Shown in pieces: positions 39,742-41,586 of a DNA stretch of 64,000 bases (its first letter is position 1; each line of letters opens with the position of its first letter). The translations under genes and the position numbers were made by a program. The notes under the pieces were generated by a model. It did no database searches. It had not been told where the DNA came from and saw only the letters and a list, made by a program, of their open reading frames with translations. Source of the stretch: Alcaligenes sp. SDU_A2 (GTDB lineage Bacteria; Pseudomonadota; Gammaproteobacteria; Burkholderiales; Burkholderiaceae_B); NCBI RefSeq assembly GCF_038237375.1, contig NZ_CP151273.1, positions 3,224,001-3,288,000 on the forward strand. Reading direction: 5' to 3'.

Positions 39742-39879
39742 CACCTGTACGGGTCGAGCTGCGCGCTCGGGTGTGGATATCCCTTTCCGATTCAAGAAAA
39801 TTCAAGCGCAAGAATCAGGAAGTCTGGCGGGGATTCGTGCTTTTATACTGGCCTGGACTTCTATTCGCAGGCGCACACG

Positions 39880-41586
39880 ATGAACAGCCCTTTTTTCTTG
39901 CGCGACACGCCCAGCCCGTATCAGGACGCTGAACGCTTTCTGGCCGGCCTGGACGCGCACTGGCAGACTCTGGTGGAAACAGTCGGCCCATGCGTGCACA
40001 CTCCCAGGCCGGAACGCGATCCCTACGAAGCCCTGGTACGCGCCGTGGTGTACCAACAATTACATACGCGTGCCGCCGACTGCATTTTGCAACGGCTATT
40101 GGGCGTGTACGAACATGGCCGCTGTCCCTCACCCGAAGAACTGCTGGCCACTCCGGTGCAGACACTGCGTGCCTGCGGGCTGTCCAGTGCCAAGACCACC
40201 AGCATCCAGGGACTGGCGCAGGCGCGCCTGGACGGGCGCATTCCAGACCAGCAAGCCGCCCTGGCCATGAGCGACCAGGAACTGATTCAATCCCTGAGCC
40301 AACTGCGCGGCATAGGCCGCTGGACAGTGGAGATGATGCTGATCTACACCTTGGAGCGCCAGGACATACTACCGGCGGATGACTGGGGAGTCCGCGACGG
40401 TTATCGCCGTCTGAAGAACCTGGAAACAGCCCCCTCTGCCAAGATCCTGCGCGACCTGGGCCAGGCCTGGTCGCCTTATCGCAGTATTGCCGCCTGGTAT
40501 CTGTGGCGCGTCCCGCGCACCAGCGCCAAAGAACCAAAGCCCTACAGCACTCCTGCCCAGCGCTGGCAGGCGGTGCTGGAGCGGGACGCGAATGCCGATG
40601 CCCACTTTGTCTATGCCGTACTGAGCACTGGCACCTATGCCAGCCCCAGCGCTGCCGCCCGCCGCCCCAAACCGGAAAATGTGCGTTACTTCGATTCGCC
40701 CGAACAAGCTCAGGCCGCCGGTTTCCGAGCCAATCGCCACCGCCATGCCGATCGACAAGAGCTGGCGCAAAAGCACAGGCAAGCCGTCACCCAGGCCTGT
40801 CGCCTGATCGAAACCAAGCAGCCGGCCCCCAGCCTGAACGAGCTGGCCGCTGCCGTGGAGTTAAGCCCCTACCACTTTCACCGAATTTTCAAGGCCCAGA
40901 CAGGCCTGACCCCGCACGCCTACGCCCAAGCACTACGTACCCGCCGACTGCGCCATACATTGGATGCTCCACAAACCAGCATCACTCGCGCCATCTACGA
41001 TGCTGGCTATGGCGCAGCCAGCCGCTTTTACGAAGAGTCCCCCACCTTGCTGGGCATGTCGGCCCGCTCCTTCCGTCAGGCCGGTCATGGAAACACCATA
41101 CGCTTTGCCATTGCCCAATGCAGCCTGGGTGCCTTGCTGGTGGCCGAAAGCGAGCGCGGAATTTGCGCCATCTCCCTGGGCGACGACGCCGAAGCACTGC
41201 TAATAGAATTGCAAGAACGTTTCAAGGCGGCCCAGTTGATCGGGGCCGATCCGCAGTTCGAGCGGCGAGTGGCGCAAGTGGTGGCATTGGTCGAAAACCC
41301 TGCGATAGGGCTGGATCTACCCCTGGACATCCAAGGCACGACGTTCCAGCAGCGCGTCTGGGAAATACTGCGCAGCATTCCGGTCGGCCAGACCCTTAGC
41401 TACACCGATATTGCGCAACGCCTGGGACAGCCACGCGCCGTGCGCGCCGTCGCCCGCGCCTGTGCCACCAATACGCTGGCCGTTGCCATTCCCTGCCATC
41501 GTGTCGTGCGCCGGGACGGTGACCTGGCCGGCTACCGTTGGGGGCTGGAGCGCAAGCGCAGTTTGCTGGATCGCGAAAGCGCTTGA
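39880..41586 (+). CDS. Four-domain alkylation repair fusion: AlkA-like glycosylase + Ada (zinc site lost) + AraC + methyltransferase
   Basis: This 568-residue protein joins a DNA-3-methyladenine glycosylase to a full Ada. Residues 1-210 are AlkA-like: helix-hairpin-helix LRGIGRWTVEMM (142-153) and the catalytic Asp in LPADDWG (167/168). Residues 225-295 align with the Ada N-terminal domain, but all four zinc Cys are gone: C38, C42, C69 and C72 of E. coli Ada correspond to Ala254, Ala258, Asn285 and Arg288. Residues 300-400 are an AraC helix-turn-helix (LSPYHFHRIFKAQTG). Residues 405-568 are the O6-methylguanine methyltransferase with active Cys539 in IPCHRVV. Without Cys38 it cannot take a methyl group from phosphotriesters, so classical Ada activation should be lost. 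The glycosylase at the N-terminus differs from the known AdaA-AlkA order. Confidence 0.93.
   Translation: MNSPFFLRDTPSPYQDAERFLAGLDAHWQTLVETVGPCVHTPRPERDPYEALVRAVVYQQLHTRAADCILQRLLGVYEHGRCPSPEELLATPVQTLRACGLSSAKTTSIQGLAQARLDGRIPDQQAALAMSDQELIQSLSQLRGIGRWTVEMMLIYTLERQDILPADDWGVRDGYRRLKNLETAPSAKILRDLGQAWSPYRSIAAWYLWRVPRTSAKEPKPYSTPAQRWQAVLERDANADAHFVYAVLSTGTYASPSAAARRPKPENVRYFDSPEQAQAAGFRANRHRHADRQELAQKHRQAVTQACRLIETKQPAPSLNELAAAVELSPYHFHRIFKAQTGLTPHAYAQALRTRRLRHTLDAPQTSITRAIYDAGYGAASRFYEESPTLLGMSARSFRQAGHGNTIRFAIAQCSLGALLVAESERGICAISLGDDAEALLIELQERFKAAQLIGADPQFERRVAQVVALVENPAIGLDLPLDIQGTTFQQRVWEILRSIPVGQTLSYTDIAQRLGQPRAVRAVARACATNTLAVAIPCHRVVRRDGDLAGYRWGLERKRSLLDRESA

Follow-up and report, generated by a model that had tools for sequence, protein, structure and literature searches.

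In the Ada protein of Escherichia coli, methylation of Cys38 is reported to lower the negative charge at its site and so to lead to sequence-specific DNA binding (PMC4437013), and the operator that is read, the Ada box, is described as an A box AAT, six bases and a B box GCAA (PMC4437013, PMC3788762). In Caulobacter, the Cada2 protein is described as having no A-domain and as being activated by methylation of the cysteine of its PCHR motif (PMC10957082). In P. putida, the alkA promoter is reported to be induced by MMS and MNNG only when ada is present; in the same account, deletion of the B box abolishes induction, deletion of the A-box ATT raises MMS induction with a delay, replacement of ATT by GCC halves induction, and deletion of four more upstream bases abolishes it (PMC3788762). 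Fusions among such proteins have also been described: the mycobacterial Ada-AlkA protein joins an Ada regulatory part to AlkA, with Ogt as a separate protein (PMC7432924), and an archaeal protein joins an alkyltransferase to endonuclease V (PMC10779285).

The window, by which we mean the whole stretch of 64,000 nucleotides that was analysed, belongs to a 3.65-Mb Alcaligenes genome (G000) and encodes a protein in which an AlkA-like glycosylase precedes a full set of Ada domains (Table 1). A preliminary description of this DNA had recognized a four-domain fusion with an intact methyltransferase active site, and the reading frame, strand, coordinates and Pfam matches all agree with it. The Pfam matches lie above their cut-offs throughout (HhH-GPD 53-197, Ada_Zn_binding 227-288, HTH_18 322-400, Methyltransf_1N 407-483 and DNA_binding_1 489-567); the A-box domain is thus present, with Ada_Zn_binding (PF02805) scoring 80.8 bits (cut-off 23), and the NCBIfam model NF011964 assigns residues 223-567 to Ada with 426 bits (cut-off 345). 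By both resources, therefore, the Ada N-domain, the AraC-type HTH and the methyltransferase stand in one chain, as in E. coli Ada. The top matches among solved structures are the domains of E. coli Ada and the DNA-3-methyladenine glycosylases 3s6i, 4hsb and 4b21, of which 3s6i is DNA-3-methyladenine glycosylase 1, with which the PADD motif of the fusion aligns. The HhH-GPD domain and the aspartate of that motif, D168, which by homology we take to be the catalytic one, mark the N-terminal part as a predicted AlkA/Mag-type HhH glycosylase, and the PCHRV active site, with C539 within IPCHRV, marks the C-terminal part as a predicted O6-methylguanine methyltransferase.

Table 1. The fusion gene, its predicted domains and its upstream elements (positions in the window)
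Feature	Position	Strand	Basis or remark
AlkA-AdaN-AraC-MGMT fusion gene, 568 aa	39880..41586	+	ORF, Pfam, NCBIfam
AlkA-like HhH glycosylase domain, residues 9-215, PADD motif	39904..40524	+	Pfam HhH-GPD; 3s6i E=4.1e-52
Ada N-domain without zinc cysteines, residues 224-295	40549..40764	+	Pfam; alignments
AraC-type HTH with SPYHFHR, residues 296-402 (its E. coli Ada counterpart is the B-box reader)	40765..41085	+	Pfam HTH_18; alignment
O6-methylguanine methyltransferase domain, residues 405-568, IPCHRV, C539	41092..41583	+	Pfam; solved-structure matches; alignment
Predicted Ada box AATTCAAGCGCAAGA (A box AAT, B box GCAA, spacing 6)	39799..39813	+	81 nt 5' of ATG
Probable -10 element TATACT, within TTATACTG	39844..39849	+	inferred assignment

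The protein is thus an AlkA-first Ada fusion, and the zinc-and-cysteine sensor of Ada is gone from it. In an alignment to the solved E. coli Ada chains 1wpk, 1zgw, 1u8b and 1adn and to relatives, Ala254, Ala258, Asn285 and Arg288 occupy the positions of C38, C42, C69 and C72, which confirms the earlier assignment of these residues; none of the four zinc cysteines of E. coli Ada, including the methyl acceptor C38, is therefore present. Two artefacts named in advance as able to overturn this were looked for and rejected: there is no displaced cysteine anywhere in residues 217-300, and a sequencing error or frameshift that would restore a canonical N-domain is at odds with uninterrupted frames and with recurrence of the same state in two other Alcaligenes genomes, G007 and G009. 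The parts of the domain that read DNA are mostly kept. T250, R261 and R283 (E. coli T34, R45 and R67) are retained, and among the A- and B-box contacts R45, H115 and R118 are kept, R71 is replaced by His (H287) and F114 by Tyr. Hence, the fusion is like E. coli Ada in its AdaN-AraC-MGMT order, its NF011964 match, its predicted A+B-box operator, its PCHR cysteine and T34/R45/R67, and unlike it in the missing zinc ligands and Cys38, in the two replaced contacts and in the AlkA domain in front. It shares with Cada2, as described, the want of a usable N-terminal methyl-acceptor cysteine, an AraC-type HTH and a PCHR methyltransferase domain; however, it has an A-box domain and an A box and no RLHD string, whereas Cada2 is reported to use a B+X box and to carry RLHD, in an account backed by mutants (PMC10957082). 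Among the matches listed from the open-licence literature, no title or abstract opening named an Ada N-domain that is cysteine-less or C38-only, or an Ada fusion with AlkA in front.

The N-domain that lost these residues does not look like a relic. Its dN/dS by the Nei-Gojobori method is 0.15 for G000-G007 and 0.06 for G009-G007, and the AlkA domain gives the same two values in these pairs; the values are rough, with synonymous sites near saturation and the third pair, G000-G009, saturated and without a value. The ratios of the N-domain thus fall among those of the glycosylase and HTH domains, the AraC domain being under purifying selection as well; its evolution appears to be about as slow as that of the enzyme domains, with no visible decay. 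Decay is not supported by these ratios, near-saturated and lacking one pair of three as they are, and the earlier suggestion of selection gains from them and from the recurrence of the zero-Cys domain in three Alcaligenes and two Azoarcus genomes.

The history of the locus can be followed across ten Alcaligenes genomes. The comparison with database homologues that had been proposed finds both the cysteine loss and the four-domain order again in G007 and G009, whose fusions lie at the same locus, have zero cysteines at these positions and show 71% search identity to the window protein, so that the fusion is present in three of the ten. Six others (G001, G002, G003, G004, G006 and G008) encode an AlkA-MGMT protein without the regulatory half, and the tenth, G005, has neither form, with separate AraC-MGMT and AlkA matches only. 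In G003 (L033) the 3' part of the two-domain frame is disrupted, whereas the other five have it as a single frame. We treat the nine loci as one because they have common downstream neighbours and a common promoter. In the trees, G000 is the first branch among the fusions, and G007 and G009 group with the two-domain proteins, in a fork that the trees do not resolve; the four-domain form is therefore likely to be the older state, from which AlkA-MGMT would have arisen by loss of the regulatory half. The two-domain proteins recall the archaeal AGT-endonuclease V, in which an alkyltransferase is likewise joined to a second alkylation-repair enzyme, though that protein is described with another partner enzyme and no regulator domains (PMC10779285).

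As to how the fusion came about, alkA and ada adjoin as separate genes, in the same order, in Pseudomonas and Azoarcus hits, and the fusion is therefore most simply a joined alkA-ada pair. The preliminary description was right that an N-terminal glycosylase reverses the known order, that of mycobacterial Ada-AlkA (PMC7432924), but the arrangement calls for no special explanation, as it simply preserves the order of the adjacent alkA and ada genes. Such adjacency is not general: in two samples, alkA lies directly upstream of ada in 11 of 44 loci whose Ada retains Cys38 alone among the four (C38-only) and in 6 of 100 with all four cysteines (CCCC). The alkA-ada operon of the P. putida group (PMC3788762) is like the fusion in having AlkA and Ada side by side in that order, and the members read here lack C42, C69 and C72; it is unlike the fusion in that the proteins are separate and Cys38 is kept. 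A methyltransferase-AlkA fusion of the opposite order, methyltransferase first, occurs in a 399-aa frame elsewhere (L042, G058 C34).

The earlier description had left open whether the protein is switched differently or serves repair only, and the evidence upstream of the gene favours the first. The string AATTCAAGmGCAAGA stands about 80 nt 5' of the ATG in all nine Alcaligenes promoters with the locus and is followed by TTATACTG, which contains TATACT and is likewise found in nine of nine upstream regions. Invariant columns make up 14 of 15 in the box as against 30 of 189 elsewhere upstream (Fisher p 9e-10). The pattern AATTNAAGNGCAAGA has exactly one match per genome in nine of the ten Alcaligenes and none in the fusion-less G005, its reversed control has none in any of the ten, and a looser Ada-box pattern also finds a single match in G000. 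By prediction, then, the fusion carries an A+B-box operator at its own promoter, as E. coli Ada does. The fusion is also the sole PF02805 match in G000 and the only protein there with both AraC and methyltransferase domains among the matches listed (4). Because a perfect Ada box (AAT-N6-GCAA) is unique in a genome in which one Ada-type protein was found, a role in repair alone is less likely, and the sequence evidence favours a regulator.

If repair were the only role, regulation would be gone and the N-domain would be left as a structural spacer or a general DNA clamp. The loss of every sensor cysteine could be read in this way, as could the six sister genomes in which AlkA-MGMT persists at this locus without AdaN-AraC, in one case with a broken frame. 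However, purifying selection acts on both AdaN and AraC, the box is conserved and unique in a genome with no other Ada-type protein found, and the regulatory half is lost only alongside a separate C38-only Ada, which all six of these genomes keep (6/6); on balance we regard a repair-only polyprotein as improbable. Among the carriers of the fusion, G000 and G009 have no separate C38-only Ada and G007 has one in addition; a divergent CCCC Ada of 34% identity is encoded in G009. Retention of AdaN-AraC where a separate C38-only Ada is absent fits a regulatory role, in nine related genomes that are too few for a test, and G000 is the one genome in which the zero-Cys protein is cleanly the sole candidate regulator of the box. 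The two-domain sisters retain the box and must have another reader for it, presumably their separate C38-only Ada, which raises the question of whether some unrecognized regulator reads the box in G000 as well, with the fusion as a mere target. No second PF02805 protein is found in G000, however, nor another AraC-methyltransferase protein among the matches listed, and we consider this very unlikely. None of the seven separate C38-only ada genes in Alcaligenes has an Ada box within 420 nt (0/7).

If the fusion does regulate, a switch by Cys38 methylation is impossible in it because the site is gone. We propose that its N-domain has become a static reader of the A box and that the switch has moved to C539 of the methyltransferase domain, a proposal by analogy whose chances we judge to be about even. 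In this scheme, a fused alkA-ada unit would have lost the zinc-thiolate sensor of methylphosphotriesters and retained DNA-binding regulation of its own promoter. With no anionic [Zn(Cys)4] site, the N-domain could approach DNA without methylation of Cys38 and read the A box independently of methylation, and the alkylation signal would be O6-methylguanine, which would methylate C539 as in Caulobacter Cada2. AlkA and O6-methylguanine transfer would place repair and regulation in one polypeptide, and sister species with a separate Ada would have deleted the regulatory half, leaving AlkA-MGMT. The retention of most DNA contacts in an N-domain devoid of zinc ligands, ahead of one conserved predicted Ada box, is what speaks for static reading, and we infer the C539 switch from the Cada2 precedent. 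The P. putida alkA promoter, whose Ada-dependent induction is reported to need the B box and to survive changes to the A-box ATT (PMC3788762), offers an intermediate case. Counting against the proposal, AdaN-AraC is lost in six sister genomes, so that the regulatory half is dispensable, and the A-box contact R71 is His in the Alcaligenes proteins. The differences from Cada2 in A-domain, operator and RLHD also weigh against it, as do the rarity of the box at Pseudomonas CCCC genes and its weakness in Azoarcus (see below).

The same features would allow a protein with no switch at all, in which the lost anionic site mimics methylated Ada, so that the box is bound and expression is steady without a damage signal. 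The zero-Cys site has no thiolate, the box and most contacts are kept, and the lowering of negative charge is how methylation is reported to act in E. coli Ada (PMC4437013); moreover, a C267G change is reported to render Cada2 constitutively active and to give cells an advantage in growth when DNA is damaged (PMC10957082). Against this, the intact and slowly evolving methyltransferase domain is a ready switch, and natural Cada2 proteins, according to the same account, apparently do not carry the constitutive form (PMC10957082). Constitutive regulation thus strikes us as unlikely.

Relatives of the window protein show that its state has a wider background. In a sample of 181 distinct Ada N-domains, gathered around the window protein and no census, 107 are CCCC, 67 are C38-only, five have zero cysteines and two are mixed (one CCRC and one partial frame), so that intermediate states are almost absent among the N-domains read. 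The C38-only state, with the three other zinc ligands gone, is found in Alcaligenaceae and in many Pseudomonas, and this is where the claim that all four cysteines went together loses support, as many relatives lack only those three ligands and keep Cys38. In this class (n=67), position 42 is Ser in 63 and position 69 is Ser in 66, position 72 is variable, and the contacts are kept almost throughout (T34 67/67, R67 67/67, R45 64/67 and R71 66/67). Because Ser is near-uniform at 42 and 69 and the contacts are kept, the C38-only site appears to be re-optimized, not decaying. Six of the 67 have an extra cysteine at position 41 (YCxPCSP), beside the lost ligand 42 (Pseudomonas L049, L050, L051, L058, L289 and L292). 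The five zero-Cys domains comprise the three Alcaligenes fusions and two from Azoarcus (A. indigens and TTM-91), in both of which the zero-Cys protein is the sole PF02805 match, as in G000; two other genomes given as the genus Azoarcus are CCCC. T34, R45 and R67 are retained in all five, and R71 in two, the three Alcaligenes having His.

Of 399 Burkholderiales genomes searched, 90 matched and all were read: 70 are CCCC, six C38-only, one zero, one CCRC and 12 without an N-domain. The CCRC case (L215, G264), has C69 replaced by Arg in a single Ada; no other of the 90 has a partial zinc site. The 12 without an N-domain (L026, L027, L199, L219, L222, L234, L236, L238 and L240-L243) are AraC-MGMT proteins of Cada2-like layout, with RLHD absent in 12 of 12 and no upstream Ada box (0/12). 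For Pseudomonas, 149 genomes were searched and 137 matched; the 70 that were read comprise 38 C38-only, 30 CCCC and two without an N-domain; these were the 30 best and 40 hand-chosen from lower ranks, and the 38:30 ratio is not a frequency. The Pseudomonas members of the C38-only class include L053-L057, L249-L281, L284, L289, L291, L292 and L297.

At 160 loci we scanned the 300 nt that precede the first match to an Ada domain for the box; as controls, the reversed pattern matched at three of these loci and the reverse complement at four. In Burkholderiales the box precedes 53 of 70 CCCC, four of six C38-only, the one zero-Cys (1/1), the one CCRC (1/1) and none of the 12 genes without an N-domain; in Pseudomonas it precedes 24 of 38 C38-only, one of 30 CCCC and neither of the two without an N-domain. 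CCCC genes of Pseudomonas thus rarely carry it, unlike those of Burkholderiales. Three of the 24 Pseudomonas C38-only boxes fall inside an alkA frame, and with alkA-adjacent loci set aside the box is present in 22 of 33 C38-only loci. In this sample, then, the operator does not require the zinc ligands, and it is seen at none of the 14 loci where the N-domain is missing. The box of the zero-Cys Azoarcus loci is weak, lying at the 3' coding end of alkA and exact in one of two (not in L063).

With the zinc part of the sensor lost and the DNA-reading parts kept, the zinc-less relatives, including many Pseudomonas, may sense damage in another way. More generally, we tentatively suggest a third mode of Ada, between that of E. 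coli Ada and Cada2, in which a zinc-less N-domain, with a C38-S42-S69 core or, in Alcaligenes and Azoarcus, a cysteine-free one, would recognize the A box with no methyl switch and the signal would come from the methyltransferase cysteine. Many Pseudomonas, probably including P. putida, would then work in this way; the suggestion as a whole seems to us plausible but somewhat doubtful. The P. putida-group proteins read (L053, L054, L055 and L057) are C38-only, without C42, C69 and C72, and L053/L250 are 54.3-54.5% identical to E. coli Ada, close to the 54.6% published for P. putida (PMC3788762). If true, this mode would fit the report that A-box changes do not abolish induction there (PMC3788762). 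Counting against it, the authors infer from R45 and R71 that activation proceeds as in E. coli, and the E. coli ada promoter is reported to be inducible in P. putida (PMC3788762). They also call the initiation of the response inexplicable, in respect of missing basal expression (PMC3788762), a puzzle that the present reading leaves unsolved. No exact AAT/ATT-N6-GCAA occurs within the 1 kb scanned at L053, L054 and L057, so that these loci do not show the box published for P. putida. It follows that an N-domain and an A box no longer imply a zinc/Cys38 switch, since 67 of 181 N-domains are C38-only and 5 of 181 have no cysteine, with operator and most contacts remaining; the finding that induction in P. 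putida depends only weakly on the A box (PMC3788762) becomes testable with two point mutants.

Because relatives keep Cys38 alone, loss was probably stepwise, with zinc lost first and Cys38 afterwards. How often this happened was addressed with trees of 104 of 201 rows, 98 after six long rows were left out, and with a careful tree of 48 rows (from 54 hand-named loci); a single clade was tested for the zero-Cys state on the 98- and 48-row trees and for the zinc-less state on the 48-row tree only. The 48-row tree draws the zero-Cys state as arising twice, but the test on it does not reject one common origin (p-AU 0.354), and on the quick 98-row tree the one-clade arrangement had the higher likelihood (p-AU 0.989); two independent origins were therefore not accepted as settled. 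One clade for the zinc-less state as a whole was rejected on the AraC-MGMT columns of the 48-row tree (p-AU 0.011). Two Pseudomonas CCCC proteins, L286 and L290, nest inside a C38-only clade of the AraC-MGMT tree, by regain, recombination of the N-domain or tree error; other Pseudomonas Ada proteins with all four cysteines are L283, L285, L287, L288 and L293.
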